From: a virus
DNA length: 20,808 nt
IMG/VR virus record: IMGVR_UViG_3300009183_000432
Span: 1-20,808 of that record
Direction: 5' to 3' (one strand)
Part shown: piece by piece, positions 3,217 to 20,121 of the stretch
Layout: each line of letters starts with the position of its first letter
Position numbering within the stretch: the stretch's first letter is position 1
Translations under genes and position numbers: made by a program
The notes under the pieces: generated by a model
The model's input: the letters and a program-made list of their open reading frames with translations, nothing else
The model's database searches: none
What the model was told of the DNA's origin: nothing

Positions 3217-5572
3217 GCCCGCACTCTCTGAACGAATCAAAGCAGGCATCCAAGGCATCGCGATCGGCGTTGCTAAGTTTGCAGGCTACAATGCAGCGAT
3301 GCCAAACAAGGTGCAAGCGCCAGCTACGCGCACGGGCACGAATCCGAACTCTAGCTACGCGCAACAGCAGCGCGTGCGGCTTTCTTTTGAGGGCGAGAAC
3401 GCGATTAAAAACACTAGCTTTGCTCGCAACTACATTAACAAACGCCGGATGTATTGCAGCAGCGGAATCACATACGCGCCCGACACGGGAGACCACGCGC
3501 TAGATGAAGCGGTGAGCGCGTATTGCATGGAACAATGGAAGCACATGGGCGTTGGATGCTCCATGCAACAGGCGTTTGCCCGTGCGTCCGATGTGAACTT
3601 ACCGGAACGCGGAGACTCGGCGCTGCAATGGTATCGTGACGAGGGGCGATTGCGATTGCTGGAAGTCACGGCGGATCGCATTGGCGAGCTTTACCAGTTC
3701 ACACGACCCGTGCGCGATGTTCGCAGCGGCGAAGTCTATTTTTCCGGCTTGTATTTGCAGGGGCCAAATACCACCGCTTATCGAATTTACGAGCGCGGCT
3801 TTGACGCGATTTACACAAATCCGCAGCGCGTGGAAGCGTGCGACGTTATATTTTTCAAAGATGACATCACGGGCGGCGTTCGCGGCGTTTCAATCTTTGC
3901 CTCGGCGCTGGAAGATGTGAACTCGCGTTATCAGATTTTAAAGTCCACGAAAGACACGATGCAGCAACAGTCGAAGATTGCGGCTATCGCGTCAAATAAT
4001 AGCGGGCAACCAAATGAACTCGACTACGAGACGCAAGTGAGCAGCGAAGGGGCGGTTGAATACGTGGAGACGATGGCAGACGGCGCTATCGTGAAATACC
4101 AATTCAACGGCGACAACTATCAAGTGTTGAAAGGCGAGCATCCAAGCGATTCGTTCATTAACGGGATGCGCTACTTGGACGCATCGGCTTCGCTTGCTGT
4201 TGGCTTCCCTTACGAGTTTTTATTCAGCGGAGCACAAAGCGGCGGTGCTCCTTTCCGTGGCGCATTTGAGGCGGCAGGGCGCGAGATTATGCGGCTCCGA
4301 AATGACGTTCACCGCCCTCGATTGGACGTTATCAGCTACGTGACAATCATGGACGGCGTGGAGCGAAAGAAGCTCCCGCCCATGCCGAACATTGCGCGTG
4401 GAAATTGGGGTTTTACTACGCTACCAACTGCGGACGCTTTCCGAGACGATGCGAGCGACATCAAAGCAATTCGCAGCGGAATCACGACGAAAAGCGCCGT
4501 CATCATGGCAAACAGCGGGCGCAGCTTTCCCGTGGTTCTGCGCGAGTCCATGCAGGAAGCGGTTGCAACAGCAATGGCCGTGGAAGATGCAAACCGCGCA
4601 CTTGTTAAAGCTGGATACAAGCCAAGCGTTACCATTGCCGACATTGCACAGGTGAGCGACAATCCGCAGCAGGCGGCGGCGGCAGAAAATTTGACGCAAG
4701 GCAAACCAGCGGAAGGAACGCCAGCGAAACCAGCAGCGGCGGTGATGGCTGATTTTGAGGAATCAAAGCATCCACGCGCCGACGATGGGAAGTTTGGCAG
4801 CGGGGGCGGAAATAAAGCAGCAAATCCCGCAGAAGAGTTTAAGAAAAAGCACGGACGCGATCCGACATTCCAAGAGCTACACGCAGGAAAAGGCGGCTTG
4901 ATTGAAAAACTCGAAAAGAAAGACGGCGGAAACAAGGCCGCAATCCGCGACGTTACGCCGGAAGGATTCGGGCCGACTGAAAGCAATTACAACGCAGGCG
5001 CAGACCCGGAGCGACTGCACGTTGATCCAGTTGAATTTAACAAGCTGAAATCCTCTATCAATGAAGCGCAAACGCTTTTGAAGGGCGATCTTTCGCCGGA
5101 AAAACAAGCACAAATTCACCGCAGCTTAGAGGCGACGAAAAAGAAGCTGGAAGACTTACAGAATCACGAACCCACAAGCCCAAGCGAGCCAGCCGCTAAG
5201 ACCGGCGATGCAGCGCCAAAGAAAGAGGGCGCGCCAGCGCCTAAGCAAAGCAAGCTAGAACAATTAAAAGCCAAGCATGAGGCACTAAAAGCAAAGAACG
5301 CGAGCAACGCAAAGAATCTTGCCGATGCAAATGCGCGCGTTAAAGAATTACACGGGCAGCTTGTGGAGCAACTAAGGGTCGGAACAGGAACGGCAAATGA
5401 CGACTTGAAAAATACCGTCAATGAACTTGGCGCTAAGATTGCGGAAACGGAAACCCATACGGCGACTATTCAGCACGCACTAAAAAACGAGGACATAGCC
5501 GCAGATGAGAGCGGGCAAGATTCTCCAGAACATGAGGCGGCGCGCAAGCGAACAGAATACGTCTCAAAATGA
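3209..5572 (+). CDS. Portal protein, lambda gpB-like, with C-terminal extension
   Basis: The portal forms the dodecameric ring through which DNA enters and leaves the head. The first 510 residues or so match the size and style of lambda-type portals (gpB, 533 aa), including the N-terminal Arg-rich helix region with NTSFARNYINKRR, the DVIFFKDDITGGVRGVSIFA segment and GFPYEFLFSGAQSGGAPFRG. Residues from about 513 to 787 are extra: the motif ESKHPRADDGKFGSGGG, then low-complexity, Lys/Glu/Ala-rich stretches with probable coiled coils. The start at 3209 (MTKPALSERIK) is chosen over in-frame 3140 because it minimises overlap with the preceding gene. The TGA overlaps the HTH gene start (ATGA at 5569). 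The extension might act as a head-interior or scaffold-like part; that is inference. Confidence 0.9.
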   Translation: MTKPALSERIKAGIQGIAIGVAKFAGYNAAMPNKVQAPATRTGTNPNSSYAQQQRVRLSFEGENAIKNTSFARNYINKRRMYCSSGITYAPDTGDHALDEAVSAYCMEQWKHMGVGCSMQQAFARASDVNLPERGDSALQWYRDEGRLRLLEVTADRIGELYQFTRPVRDVRSGEVYFSGLYLQGPNTTAYRIYERGFDAIYTNPQRVEACDVIFFKDDITGGVRGVSIFASALEDVNSRYQILKSTKDTMQQQSKIAAIASNNSGQPNELDYETQVSSEGAVEYVETMADGAIVKYQFNGDNYQVLKGEHPSDSFINGMRYLDASASLAVGFPYEFLFSGAQSGGAPFRGAFEAAGREIMRLRNDVHRPRLDVISYVTIMDGVERKKLPPMPNIARGNWGFTTLPTADAFRDDASDIKAIRSGITTKSAVIMANSGRSFPVVLRESMQEAVATAMAVEDANRALVKAGYKPSVTIADIAQVSDNPQQAAAAENLTQGKPAEGTPAKPAAAVMADFEESKHPRADDGKFGSGGGNKAANPAEEFKKKHGRDPTFQELHAGKGGLIEKLEKKDGGNKAAIRDVTPEGFGPTESNYNAGADPERLHVDPVEFNKLKSSINEAQTLLKGDLSPEKQAQIHRSLEATKKKLEDLQNHEPTSPSEPAAKTGDAAPKKEGAPAPKQSKLEQLKAKHEALKAKNASNAKNLADANARVKELHGQLVEQLRVGTGTANDDLKNTVNELGAKIAETETHTATIQHALKNEDIAADESGQDSPEHEAARKRTEYVSK

Positions 5573-7177: not shown

Positions 7178-8173
7178 ATGCCAGCATATACTAACTCAAC
7201 AGCCCGCCCTCGGCAGGAACTCGCATCCGTCATTCGTGAAGGACGCGGGATTAACAAGCTCAACATTCATTCGCAGATTCTTCCGGCCCTCCCGGTGAAC
7301 AAGCGCACGGTGCATTTGGTGAAAGCCAAGATTGCAAACGCGCAGCTTGCACGAATCTTGGATGATTACTTCATCACTGCTCCCGGCGCAAACGTCGAGC
7401 GCATGACGGCAACTCTTAACGATGACTCGTTCACCGTTACGATCCGCAAGCGCGAAATTCAAGTGCCCGACGAAGTTGAAATGGATTACGCCGATTATCT
7501 CAGCGTCGAATCCCTCATGGCAGCACAGGCCGCAGAAGCCGTGGAAATCACCACGGAGTATCTGACCGCCGCCGCGATCATGAATACGACCAACTTCGGC
7601 AGCGCAACAAACAGCGCCGTTGCTTACACGGAAGCCAACCTCGCCACGGTCAACTTCGTGCGCGATGTGTATGACTCGATTGAGCGCGTGCTGGATAAGG
7701 GCGAAGTTGCCGACACTATCGTTCTTAGCTCGCAGGTCTATAAGCGCATCCGTCGCTCGACCTTGCTGACTAACTTCGTTGTTTCCCAACTCGGCAAAGG
7801 TTACGAAGTCAACCAGAGCAATCTGCAACTCGCGTTTGCCGACGCTGGCATCAAAAAGGTGCTCATCGGCAATAGCGTCTATAACAGCGCAAGCGACGGC
7901 GCGACGGCGGTTATGTCCCGCATTTGGGGCAATACTTACGTGTGGGTCGGCGCGGCTGGGGACAGCGCAAGCGCGCAGGAAGACGGCATTGCAACGCTCC
8001 AAGGTTGCGGCGTCAATGCTTACTGGGACAGCTACACGCCCGCAGACGGCTACGGCGTGGATACCTACCGCGAAGAGAAAACGGAGTCGAACATTGTTCG
8101 CACGAAAACCTCGAAAGCGCCCTACATTGCGAACGGCAATGCGGGAGATTTGATCGCGACGCAGTTCAGTTAA
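7178..8173 (+). CDS. Major capsid protein
   Basis: The 331-residue product follows the protease, scaffold and decoration genes and has the size and composition of an HK97-fold capsid subunit. Visible parts: an N-terminal arm (first 50 residues), a beta-rich stretch with MTATLNDDSFTVTIRKRE and the acidic VPDEVEMDYADY, the long spine-like helix SVESLMAAQAAEAVEITTEY, an Asn/Thr-rich turn, and the C-terminal A-domain strands ending ...GNAGDLIATQFS. The leader is ACTAACTAACAAATACA, again without Shine-Dalgarno. Codons are strongly biased to GCC, CTC, AAC and CGC, which fits the most abundant virion protein. The family within the HK97 fold cannot be fixed by eye. Confidence 0.85.
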   Translation: MPAYTNSTARPRQELASVIREGRGINKLNIHSQILPALPVNKRTVHLVKAKIANAQLARILDDYFITAPGANVERMTATLNDDSFTVTIRKREIQVPDEVEMDYADYLSVESLMAAQAAEAVEITTEYLTAAAIMNTTNFGSATNSAVAYTEANLATVNFVRDVYDSIERVLDKGEVADTIVLSSQVYKRIRRSTLLTNFVVSQLGKGYEVNQSNLQLAFADAGIKKVLIGNSVYNSASDGATAVMSRIWGNTYVWVGAAGDSASAQEDGIATLQGCGVNAYWDSYTPADGYGVDTYREEKTESNIVRTKTSKAPYIANGNAGDLIATQFS

Positions 8174-8204
8174 GCAAACAACCGAGTAGCGATTAACTAA
8201 TTGA

Positions 8205-8238
8205 CATGCCGCTAGGGTTTAATTACTCTAGCGGCATG
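8205..8238 (+). promoter_or_regulatory. Perfect 11-bp hairpin over the endonuclease start
   Basis: CATGCCGCTAG (8205-8215) and CTAGCGGCATG (8228-8238) are exact reverse complements around a 12-base loop. The right arm ends in ATG 8236, the preferred start of the GIY-YIG gene, and the left arm contains the alternative in-frame ATG 8206. Pairing would bury both start codons. No U-run follows, so a translational block is more likely than a terminator, though partial termination after the capsid gene is possible. Confidence 0.8.
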
Positions 8239-9048
8239 ACTATTTATATATACGGTCTCTATGACCCAAGAAATGGACTGCTGAGATATGTAGGAAAAAC
8301 TAACAACATTCGCATTAGGCGCTCAGCGCATACTAGTGAAAACGGAGAGCGTTATAAGCATAATTGGGTAAAATCACTGATTAGCGTTGGTCTTAGGCCG
8401 GAGATTCGTGTTTTAGAAACAATCGAAAACAGCGACGATAAAGATTGGCAGGAAAGAGAGCGATGGTGGATTAAGTCTTCATTTGATTCCGGCGCTCCAT
8501 TAACGAATCTGCACTCAGGCGGGCGAGGCGGATTCTCAATGCACGAATCCACGAAAGACAAAATCCGCACCAAAGCGACAGGGCGCAAAATGTCACCCGA
8601 AGCGGTCGCCAAAATGAAGGCGTCGAAAGCGGCGAATCTAACGCCGGAAGTGCGCGAAAGAATAAGGCTCGCGCAGCTTGGCAAGAAGCAATCAGCGGAG
8701 ACGCGAGCAAGGCGCGCAGCGGCTATGACAGGGCGCGTAGTGTCAGAAGAAACACGGCGCAAGATAGGCGAGGCGAACAAGATTTCACGCGAGCGTTATC
8801 TTGCGGAGCATCCGCCAAAGTGCCGACAGCCGAAGGTTAAAAAAGAGCGCGCACCTATCAGCGCGGAAGCGCGGTATAAGATGCGACTAGCCAAGCTCGG
8901 CAAGCGGAAGACGGCGGAAGCAATAGAAGCCGCGCACGCTCCATTGCGAGGAAGAAAGCGCAGCGCGGAGACACGGGCGAAAATGTCACAAGCAAAGCGC
9001 GAGGGATGGGCGCGTCGAAAATTGCTTGCCAATAACCGCATCCTGTAA
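8236..9048 (+). CDS. GIY-YIG homing endonuclease with NUMOD3-type repeats
   Basis: Free-standing homing endonuclease that cuts related genomes lacking the gene and spreads by repair. The N-terminal GIY-YIG domain (residues 1-85) has IYIYGLYDP and RYVGKTNN, an Arg-rich helix IRIRRSAHT with the likely catalytic Arg, and DWQERERWWIKS with the likely catalytic Glu. Residues about 90-270 hold repeated Ser-x-Glu-x-x-x-Lys/Arg-Met/Ile units (MSPEAVAKMK, QSAETRARRA, VSEETRRKI, ISAEARYKMR, RSAETRAKMS), typical of NUMOD3 DNA-binding modules. ATG 8236 is chosen because the domain begins there; ATG 8206 would add ten residues. Base use is more A/T-rich at the 5' end than in the capsid gene, consistent with insertion. 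Confidence 0.9.
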   Translation: MTIYIYGLYDPRNGLLRYVGKTNNIRIRRSAHTSENGERYKHNWVKSLISVGLRPEIRVLETIENSDDKDWQERERWWIKSSFDSGAPLTNLHSGGRGGFSMHESTKDKIRTKATGRKMSPEAVAKMKASKAANLTPEVRERIRLAQLGKKQSAETRARRAAAMTGRVVSEETRRKIGEANKISRERYLAEHPPKCRQPKVKKERAPISAEARYKMRLAKLGKRKTAEAIEAAHAPLRGRKRSAETRAKMSQAKREGWARRKLLANNRIL

Positions 9049-16740: not shown

Positions 16741-19700
16741 ATGCCACTGAACCTACTAATTAACACCTCAGACCCGCAGCAGCGCGGTTTAATCAACAGC
16801 ATCCTAGACGGTGGCATTGCTCCTTTTCCTAACTTCACGCGAAACGATCAAAGCGTAGTCATAGCTATTCAGCCCGTCGTTCCATCGGCAACAGACACGC
16901 GCAGCTTCGACGTGGATTACACGGCTGGCGACACGTATCAAGTCAGCATCGGAAGCGCGGACGAAGCGCCAACGGCGGGCACATTTGCCTTGGAAATTGA
17001 CGGCGTGACAACCGACTTGACGGCGTTAGACTTTGACGTTAGCGCGGCGGATTTGCAAACTCCGCTAAGCCTCGCAAGCGTTGCGGGCGGAAATCCAGCC
17101 GTGACCGTCACGCTTTTAAGCGAAGGCGTTTATCAAGTGGACGGCGCAACGGTTGGTGTGCTTCCCACAATCGCGGCAACGGCAACGAATCTGATTCCCG
17201 TTTGCTCGGCGGTTGTAACCGTTATCGCGCAAGGGACGGTCTCCACAAAGGGACAGCAGATTATCGCGCTAGTTCAACAGCCTGCGGCATACGCTACGCC
17301 TTCGACGGCGCTACCAACGGCGAGCGTTACGGTATCTACTGAACAAGCCGCAAGTTCGTCGTTGAATAAAATCATTCGCATAGCTTTCGCCGCTGGCACT
17401 TATGGCGGGCTTTATAGCCTTAGCGCGACGGTTAACGGCGTGACGGCGGTGTGCGGCTCAGTTTCTCCCGTGGCGAGCATTGGCGAGCTTTCTGCGGTGC
17501 TAGGGCGGCATCCGCAGTTGCGCTACAATAACGCCAACGCAGCGGACAACTTCACAGTTTCGACAGACGGCGCGGCGTATCTTGTGGAGTTTATCGGCAA
17601 CCTCGCGGGGCCAGTTGACCCTAGCTTAGCGGCAACAAATGTTTCATTGCTCGCGCCCTTCGGCGCATCCGGCACGATTTCACTAAACACGGTGAACATG
17701 GCGAAGATGTTTTGGGCATCGGGCGTGGATTCGCTCGCGCTTACATTGTCCGTTGTCCGCACGCGCGCAAGTGGCGAGGTAAAAACGATTCTCTCGATTC
17801 CCGTTACAGTTCCAGCCGACATCATAAACGCTGGTTCGCTCACTCCGCTTTCCGTTTCGGGGGCGGTTAGGTATGACACATCCCAAAGCCTGAGCGCATC
17901 GGAAAAACTACAGGCCGTCACAAATCAAGGTCTTAACCTAACCGCCTCAAAGCTACTTGGACAGGCGAGCAGCGGCGGAACCGGATTGCCAGTTGCAATC
18001 ACTCTAGGCACAAACCTAAGTATGAGCGGCACGACGCTGAACGCGGTGGATTCAGCTACGGGCACAGTGACTAGCGTTTCCGTGACAACGGCAAACGGCG
18101 TCAGCGGCACAGTGGCGACAGCGACAACTACGCCCGCGATTAGCTTAACGCTTGGAGCAATCACGCCGACTAGCGTTGCCGCATCTGGTGCCGTAAGTGG
18201 CAGTAATCTTAGCGGAACGAACACGGGCGATCAAACCAGCGTGAGCGGAAATGCTGGAACGGCAACGGCACTTGCAACGCCTCGCAACATTTTCAACATT
18301 AGCTTTAACGGCACGGCAAATGTTGCTGGCGATGCAACAAACACGGGCCACTTTGCCAGCATTCCCGGAACGGGCGCTGCGGGGCATTTCGTCACTGAAA
18401 ATGGAACCACTCCAACTCTTATAGCCGGACGCTCGGCTTGGTATTCAGACGGTAGTGGTATCCCATCTTTCAAAAATGGAACTGGCACTGCTGTTACGCT
18501 TGTGCGTAGTTCCGACTTAGGCACAGGAGTTGCAACTTTCCTCGCCACTCCATCCGGCGCAAACCTAGCATCTGCGCTCACATCGGCATTACCAGAAACA
18601 AAAGGCGGCACGAATCAAACAACCTATACCACGGGCGACATACTCTATGCCAGCGCATCGAACACGCTTTCCAAGCTGGCTGATGTAGCGGTTGGCAGCG
18701 TGCTTTCCAGCGGCGGCGTCGCTACGGCTCCGGCTTGGAGCGCATCGCCATACATAGGCACTTCGATTAACCTTGGACACGCCACCGACACGACAATCAC
18801 CCGCGTCTCCGCTGGCAGAATCGCGGTGGAAGGCGTGAATGTCGTCACCACTTCGTCCGCGGATACCCTCGCGAACAAAAGCATAGACAATACGTGCAGC
18901 TTGAGTGGCTCCTTCTCCGGCAGCGCTAGTGCTGCCACATTCTACACTAACTATTTCTCCCCACAGTCTTACTACGGCGACATTTCAACAAGTGCCTATG
19001 CTTGGTGGTTTGATTCTGCGCAACTCTGTCTAGCGCAATACCTCGGCGCGAGCAACCTTGGGAAGCGGGCTACACTCCCCACGGTGCTGTATGGCAGTTA
19101 TTCGCCTGCCGTGGTTGGCGGCAATACCCTGACCACTGCACAAAACTTCCTCGCTCATACAATCACAGCGACGAACTCTTCGGCAACGTGGACGTTTGCA
19201 TCCCCGATTGGATTTGTCATCGGGGATGCTGTGAAGTTGTCCACAACGGGAACGCTGCCTTCTGGATTCGATCAATATACAACTTACTACATCATCGGAA
19301 CCTCGTTTTCGGCGGGCGTGAGCTGTCAGCTTGCTTCCTCACTCACAGGCAGCGCGATCAGCGGAAGCGGCGGAAGTGGCACGCACACGATGACGAGAAC
19401 GAATTGCATTGGTGCTCCCGTTATCCCTGCAAACTTGCTTGTGACAGGGAAAAAACTGCGGATTAGAATAGATGGAGTGTATTACAGCGGAACGTCTTCC
19501 ACGATTATCCCGACAATCACAGTTGGCGGGGTGCAGGTAAGCAGCCAATCCACCGGCACGATTTCACCTTCGTCTCTAACTAATTCTGATTTTTGGCTGG
19601 AAACCGTATTGACGATGTTTGATTCGTTGCGAATGTCTTGCGAGGGTGGTATCCTAACAACCTCGCTGCAAAGCACGACCACGACTGGATTTGCGTATTC

Positions 19701-20121
19701 GTTGAATACCTCCACGATGGCCTCTAGCGGTATTGGCAACACCGTCACATTCACTAGCGCAACCCCAACCGTTGTTACTCATACAATGACGGGTGTTGTG
19801 GCGGTTGGCGATGTGGTAAAGTTCACATCGGCAGCGGCGGTGACTTGGCCTTCGGGAACTTGGCCGAACGGGATTGCGCCAAATGTGCCTTACTACGTCA
19901 CGGCGATTCCGAGCAGCACGACATTCCGAATTTCGCTCTCCGCTGGCGGGACTGAAATCAACACCACTAGCACAGGGACGGGAACCTTTGCAATGCAGTT
20001 TGTTGCAAAGCTCATAGACCCGACCGTAGCGAACACGATTGCCGCTACGATGAAATGGGGAACTGGAAATGTCGGCAATCAAGTCCACGCAAATAACGCA
20101 ACCATCGAAATCCTCAATTAA
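16741..20121 (+). CDS. Tail fibre / receptor-binding protein
   Basis: A 1126-residue, Thr/Ser/Ala/Gly-rich protein of fibre type. Residues 1-400 contain beta domains and probably attach to the tail. Near 490-510 the block GTNTGDQTSVSGNAGTATAL followed by ATPRNIFNISFNGTANVAG is the classic fibre repeat motif. Near 620-640, GGTNQTTYTTGDILYASASN with a following 'L-S-S-G-G' resembles another common fibre repeat. Two beta modules, about 818-885 and 1003-1087, share TTYYII/PYYVTA with later Gly-Thr turns and match one in the preceding protein. The C-terminus (TIEILN) has no chaperone motif. The protein likely recognises the host surface. Start ATG 16741 lies just after the promoter candidate; no Shine-Dalgarno sequence is seen. 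Confidence 0.87.
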   Translation: MPLNLLINTSDPQQRGLINSILDGGIAPFPNFTRNDQSVVIAIQPVVPSATDTRSFDVDYTAGDTYQVSIGSADEAPTAGTFALEIDGVTTDLTALDFDVSAADLQTPLSLASVAGGNPAVTVTLLSEGVYQVDGATVGVLPTIAATATNLIPVCSAVVTVIAQGTVSTKGQQIIALVQQPAAYATPSTALPTASVTVSTEQAASSSLNKIIRIAFAAGTYGGLYSLSATVNGVTAVCGSVSPVASIGELSAVLGRHPQLRYNNANAADNFTVSTDGAAYLVEFIGNLAGPVDPSLAATNVSLLAPFGASGTISLNTVNMAKMFWASGVDSLALTLSVVRTRASGEVKTILSIPVTVPADIINAGSLTPLSVSGAVRYDTSQSLSASEKLQAVTNQGLNLTASKLLGQASSGGTGLPVAITLGTNLSMSGTTLNAVDSATGTVTSVSVTTANGVSGTVATATTTPAISLTLGAITPTSVAASGAVSGSNLSGTNTGDQTSVSGNAGTATALATPRNIFNISFNGTANVAGDATNTGHFASIPGTGAAGHFVTENGTTPTLIAGRSAWYSDGSGIPSFKNGTGTAVTLVRSSDLGTGVATFLATPSGANLASALTSALPETKGGTNQTTYTTGDILYASASNTLSKLADVAVGSVLSSGGVATAPAWSASPYIGTSINLGHATDTTITRVSAGRIAVEGVNVVTTSSADTLANKSIDNTCSLSGSFSGSASAATFYTNYFSPQSYYGDISTSAYAWWFDSAQLCLAQYLGASNLGKRATLPTVLYGSYSPAVVGGNTLTTAQNFLAHTITATNSSATWTFASPIGFVIGDAVKLSTTGTLPSGFDQYTTYYIIGTSFSAGVSCQLASSLTGSAISGSGGSGTHTMTRTNCIGAPVIPANLLVTGKKLRIRIDGVYYSGTSSTIIPTITVGGVQVSSQSTGTISPSSLTNSDFWLETVLTMFDSLRMSCEGGILTTSLQSTTTTGFAYSLNTSTMASSGIGNTVTFTSATPTVVTHTMTGVVAVGDVVKFTSAAAVTWPSGTWPNGIAPNVPYYVTAIPSSTTFRISLSAGGTEINTTSTGTGTFAMQFVAKLIDPTVANTIAATMKWGTGNVGNQVHANNATIEILN

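Follow-up and report, generated by a model that had tools for sequence, protein, structure and literature searches.

A conserved hairpin over the start codon of a homing endonuclease gene behind a phage capsid gene

What becomes of a homing endonuclease gene (HEG) when it is read through from the major capsid gene in front of it? The question is raised by a stretch of 20,808 nt from an uncultured bacterial virus (IMGVR_UViG_3300009183_000432, positions 1–20,808), the whole of which is called the window here. On its + strand, to which all features below belong, a major capsid protein gene (7178–8173, 331 aa; PHROG_1005 major head protein, E = 1.6e-15) ends with TAA at 8171–8173, directly upstream of a strong hairpin at 8205–8238. 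The HEG follows (8236–9048, 270 aa), free-standing and co-directional with the capsid gene. It had been proposed that the stem may keep capsid read-through from producing the endonuclease.

The HEG matches PHROG_314 homing endonuclease (E = 2e-19) and carries GIY-YIG (PF01541, E = 3.5e-7) and NUMOD3 (PF07460, E = 4.1e-7) domains, both scoring above the Pfam cut-offs. Residues Y6, Y18, G20, R28, E75 and N91 are invariant in protein alignments A1 and A3; the catalytic roles of the GIY-YIG Tyr, Arg, Glu and Asn residues we take to be those of I-TevI. Judged by its sequence, it is a free-standing GIY-YIG homing endonuclease. Its relatives in annotated phages are only 25–41% identical, and searches of annotated phages with the window DNA, the window capsid protein or that of lineage L066 returned no match, nor did a PDB sequence search with the HEG. 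A genome scan for relatives gave none with a first query and one short match, on a Thiomargarita contig, with a second; further viral scans found no additional lineage carrying the gene. Searching with the DNA pattern of the start region yielded, beyond known loci, three unrelated ones (L057, L058 and L061).

The insertion and the start of the gene

The gene is polymorphic among close relatives. It is present in the window, L041 and L043 and absent from L038, L040, L042, L044, L045 and L047 (94–99% capsid identity); the same presence/absence distinguishes L080 from L081 and L094 from L092. All six genomes of the window's group without the gene carry a textbook terminator, GCCCGCGCTTGGAAACAGGCGCGGGTTTTT, after the capsid gene. 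An almost exact empty site is seen in L042, whose sequence agrees with that of the HEG-bearing L041 and L002 as far as AACTCA and picks up again at TTGCTTGCC. The HEG segment (about 8201–9021) therefore occupies the place of the terminator, a native hairpin of ~29 nt in L038–L047. The HEG ends within ancestral flank DNA common to relatives without the gene, which encodes its final eight codons and stop (LLANNRIL*, 9022–9048). In L038 and L047, TTGCTTGCCAATAACCGCATCCTGTAA is likewise found after the terminator. The next phage gene (9065–9364, 99 aa) adjoins the terminator directly in such relatives.

Phages with the HEG and their nearest relatives without it diverge, mainly through synonymous changes, over the final 30–50 nt of the capsid gene (L080 vs. 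L081/L082, L094 vs. L092, the window vs. its group). The places concerned are window 8120–8173 and the capsid 3′ ends of L080 and L094. L080 is about 99% identical to L081/L082 before the divergent end, which matches that of L084. Such differences would fit homing with co-conversion of flanks, or recoding of the target in the capsid 3′ end, and the apparent exchange of flanks near the insertion site is consistent with homing of the HEG. As a separate observation, the HEG of L003 (4001–4813) is a domain swap: its C-terminal half is nearly identical to that of the window HEG, while the catalytic domains share about 52% identity.

Two candidate start codons, at 8206 and 8236, had been placed in the stem. 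Both are indeed paired, but only one is credible. In the alignment with relatives the protein opens with MT[IVN]YIYGLYDPR at 8236, and on this comparison ATG 8236 is the true start. A start at 8206 was rejected as unconserved: L003 reads CACGCC at this place, no ATG is present in L066, and the L094 copy reaches a stop after five codons. The ATG at 8206 exists because CATG is self-complementary, so that a stem pairing CATG displays ATG in both arms.

No Shine-Dalgarno sequence lies at usable spacing upstream of 8236, and the majority of window genes lack one. For translation of this kind, local absence of structure has been reported to be both necessary and sufficient (PMC3121790). Since the window's genes mostly do without a Shine-Dalgarno, pairing of the start codon itself would be the lock. 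The suggestion that the hairpin occludes the ribosome-binding region as in T4 thus holds for the start codon, which is covered, but not for a Shine-Dalgarno.

Structure and conservation of the hairpin

The arms CATGCCGCTAG (8205–8215) and CTAGCGGCATG (8228–8238) are exact reverse complements, as originally noted (chance expectation 0.00). The 11-bp repeat is perfect, but it is only the outer part of the stem: in place of a 12-base loop, folding and comparison of pairing extend it to 14 bp, including one G·U, between a 5′ arm CATGCCGCTAGGGT (8205–8218) and a 3′ arm ACTCTAGCGGCATG (8225–8238), around the 6-nt loop TTAATT (8219–8224). The final three bases of the 3′ arm are the HEG start codon. 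Folding of 8170–8270, a check named in the original prediction, gave a minimum free energy of −33.3 kcal/mol, against −16 ± 3 for shuffled sequences (z = −5.6), none of 200 being as stable. The hairpin is also the top fold (−25.7 kcal/mol, + strand) of all 40-nt stretches on both strands of the window, ahead of a runner-up at −23.4; 40-nt folds across the window average −6.9 kcal/mol with a standard deviation of 3.4. An Rfam scan of the window found no family. Another strong inverted repeat lies at 19198–19229, inside a large gene (16741–20121), with perfect 11-bp arms (GCATCCCCGAT/ATCGGGGATGC) and a 10-nt loop.

Post-capsid HEGs of four lineages share the register of the hairpin, with 5′ arms CATGCCGCTAGGGT in the window and L002, CACGCCGCACGGT in L003, TGCCGGGAGGTTAA in L066 and CATGCGCACAGGTT in L094. 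The N-terminal domains of the endonucleases of L003, L066 and L094 are 51–61% identical to that of the window, and the letters of the stem largely differ between lineages while the pairing is kept. In alignment A6, five metagenomic sequences of four lineages related by descent (window, L002, L003, L066 and L094), standard pairs make up 97% of pair cells and two-sided changes occur at 7 of the 14 stem pairs. The covariation score is 0.61, whereas shuffling gives 0.20 (0/500) and shifted registers do not exceed 0.16; RNAalifold, unprompted, returned the identical 14 pairs. The start codon takes part: in L003, AUG has become GUG and the opposite arm compensates (CAT to CAC). The stem of L066 pairs only the A of AUG. 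Comparison with relatives thus bears out conserved pairing, with compensatory changes, in the four lineages.

G·U pairs on the + strand occur in three lineages, which would favour the sense RNA as the paired molecule. They also weigh on the possibility that the repeat acts in DNA, as a palindromic operator or recognition site for the endonuclease or another protein, or as a cruciform. I-TevI acts as its own repressor, through an operator located at its promoter (PMC2988022), and the repeat is near-perfect in DNA; however, those G·U pairs are mismatches in DNA, and conservation of pairing between lineages, but not of stem sequence, is a poor fit to a sequence-specific protein. We regard a DNA-level element as highly improbable.

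Capsid 3′ ends with and without the gene

Could the hairpin simply belong to the capsid gene? In such a case it would be a capsid 3′ hairpin, acting as an intrinsic terminator or exonuclease barrier, at whose foot the HEG landed, and it would cover the start codon only incidentally. We read the regions 3′ of the capsid stop in relatives of the window capsid and in 56 relatives of the L066 capsid (30% identical to that of the window). Taking the best hairpin in 90 nt, one of −18 kcal/mol or better is found at the same place in 45 of the 48 distinct relatives without the gene, in both groups together, which makes a hairpin after the capsid gene the rule. The closest relatives of the window have the textbook terminator GCCCGCGC..GCGCGGGTTTTT there, with TTTTT. 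As L084 keeps an L066-type hairpin without any HEG, the structure can occur independently of the gene, which supports a capsid-side role; L084 may represent either an ancestral empty site or loss of the HEG. At L084 3964–4040, TTGAC plus hairpin appear as in the HEG-bearing L066, with the -10-like TAACCT changed to TGACCT.

Against this stands the relation of the stem to the start codon. The hairpins of relatives without the gene, often terminators, cover no start codon, and the next start is open in all but L052 and L097, whose starts are likely mis-assigned; in every HEG-bearing copy the start codon is in or at the stem. In L003 the change of start codon is matched in the opposite arm, and the hairpin of the HEG-bearing members of the window's group differs from the native terminator. 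The U-tract argues in the same direction. An intrinsic terminator calls for a GC-rich stem with an immediate U-run; the HEG-bearing hairpins have the stem, but the U-run is absent or broken (tails after the stem: ACTATTTATA in the window, ACTGTTTATA in L003, ACGGTTTACA in L066, ACGAACTACA in L094). Although a loose terminator scan flags the window site (5 of 8 tail bases T), the number of its matches is at the level of chance. Intrinsic termination was therefore rejected as the main role of these hairpins. As far as these sequences go, HEG-bearing phages are peculiar in that the start codon of the following gene lies in the stem or borders on it, and that no proper U-run is present.

Taken together, we find it unlikely that the hairpin is a capsid 3′ hairpin only. 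A second, capsid-side role is nonetheless probable, since the stem stands at the position of the capsid 3′ hairpin of relatives without the gene; it probably also forms the 3′ end of the capsid message, a role that may account for some of its conservation. In two further pairs, L086/L087 and L097/L098, the outer arms of the hairpin just past the capsid stop are kept, whereas the interior is inverted (CTTGGATAAAACCTTG vs. CAAGGTTTTATCCAAG; TGAAAGAT vs. ATCTTTCA), which suggests loop inversion between relatives.

A translational lock and its possible release

Computed accessibility points to a lock on translation. The energy needed to open −10 to +8 around the start is 20.8 kcal/mol for the window HEG, 21.9 for L002, 26.4 for L003, 24.4 for L066 and 25.0 for L094. 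It is 1.9–12.7 kcal/mol for family members at other sites, and a lock common to every member of the family was accordingly rejected. L003 has another HEG of this family at 5131, behind the next phage gene; its ATG comes directly after the stop of that gene (TAGGATGG) and it lacks a hairpin lock, so that one genome holds opposite start arrangements in two HEGs of one family. The first post-capsid gene of 43 relatives without the HEG has a median cost of 4.2 kcal/mol, the outliers L097 and L052 probably having wrongly assigned starts. That comparison used automatic starts (8206 in the window and L041, an upstream GTG in L094), and the costs at the true starts were computed separately. Other window genes mostly lie at 1–13 kcal/mol; TerL reaches 16.5, with an uncertain start.

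We hypothesize, with the caution due to repression in vivo, that the hairpin is probably a translational lock on the HEG in capsid read-through mRNA. Such RNA would contain both arms, and the 14-bp stem would hide the start at 8236 and the surrounding bases. Initiation without a Shine-Dalgarno would need an unpaired start codon, and pairing should be an effective block. The ribosome leaving the capsid gene terminates about 30 nt before the stem and should not open it. The capsid message, presumably abundant, would then yield little endonuclease. The original idea of a barrier to read-through expression is in this sense partly supported: the start at 8236 is covered, the pairing is conserved, and the full-length RNA is computed to be closed and one starting inside the hairpin to be open. 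It loses the start at 8206 and any Shine-Dalgarno.

To be expressed, the HEG would need an RNA that begins within the hairpin, made either by transcription from a candidate internal promoter or by processing. RNAs that begin at 8205 or upstream stay closed at the start (about 21–23 kcal/mol); shifting the 5′ end lowers the computed cost to 9.7 at 8212, 4.9 at 8218 and 0.5 kcal/mol at 8236. TTGACA (8201–8206), which resembles a -35 element and overlaps the base of the 5′ arm, had been described as having no matching -10. Its coordinates are right and no strict consensus -10 exists, but TACTCT (8224–8229), of the form TAnnnT, lies exactly 17 nt downstream and 6 nt before ATG 8236. The predicted RNA would start at the A of this ATG and lack the 5′ arm.

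Counterparts are seen in the other lineages (TTTACA-16-TACTGT in L003, TTGACT-18-TAACCT in L066, TTTGCA-19-TAATCT in L094, the latter also with TTTGCA-17-TATAAT). All four lineages thus have a -35-like element (4–6 of 6 positions matching TTGACA) and TAnnnT at a spacing of 16–19 nt, 5–6 nt before the start. Random paired hairpins reach this in 3.2% of cases (-35 of at least 4/6) or 0.7% (at least 5/6), and a similar criterion is reached by 1 of 43 controls without the HEG; the criterion was set after the sequences had been seen, and the lineages share ancestry and are not fully independent. L084, without the HEG, has TGACCT where L066 has TAACCT. On the other hand, the -10 matches are weak (3/6 in the window), the predicted L003 RNA start lies within GTG, and a strict sigma-70 scan found no match at the hairpin. 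A promoter within the hairpin giving a leaderless, translated HEG mRNA without the 5′ arm would extend the lock and is compatible with it; we offer this speculative switch as a candidate only, tentatively.

Somewhat more doubtful is the idea that a single 34-nt element does everything, replacing the capsid 3′ hairpin, locking the HEG start and holding the promoter for a leaderless, unlocked mRNA, all fused and co-evolving. In this reading, promoter, terminator-like stem and start codon would be combined in one element. The lock by itself would extend a mode of control of T4-like phages to unrelated, uncultured phages largely without Shine-Dalgarno starts, and here the start codon is among the bases that co-vary with their partners in the stem. 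The site also illustrates how a selfish gene may establish itself behind the major capsid gene, by takeover of the capsid 3′ hairpin.

In I-TevI, I-TevII, I-TevIII, T4 segB and Aeh1 mobE, hairpins are known to close the region of translation initiation when the HEG is carried on a long transcript, and late promoters yield unlocked RNA for such genes, e.g., I-TevI and mobE (PMC2988022, PMC3014915). As with I-TevI, and also I-TevII and I-TevIII, the HEG studied here lies within an upstream transcription unit, with a stable hairpin closing its initiation region on long transcripts. I-TevI is also made from shorter late-promoter transcripts without the hairpin-forming sequence (PMC2988022, PMC3014915), whereas here the internal promoter is only predicted; its Shine-Dalgarno is sequestered and its gene sits in a group I intron, whereas here the start codon is paired and the gene is free-standing. 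The latter trait, with a hairpin over the translation start, is shared with mobE of Aeromonas phage Aeh1 and with T4 segB. Unlike the present gene, mobE is an HNH endonuclease, both occupy other positions (ribonucleotide reductase genes, tRNA region), their Shine-Dalgarno is sequestered and no capsid terminator was replaced. T4 segD, too, is a GIY-YIG HEG that neighbours the major capsid gene (gene 23), with terminators nearby, but it is oriented antisense to that gene (PMC2988022), while the window HEG is co-directional. Set against the T4-type locked HEGs, our locus has the hairpin over the initiation region of a read-through RNA, by computation and covariation, and no Shine-Dalgarno in the stem; a promoter whose transcripts lack the 5′ arm has candidates in four lineages and is absent from the strict scan. 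By analogy, the proposed lock works like those of I-TevI, segB and mobE, but without the sequestered Shine-Dalgarno, a defining point of these systems, and with a promoter that is a candidate.
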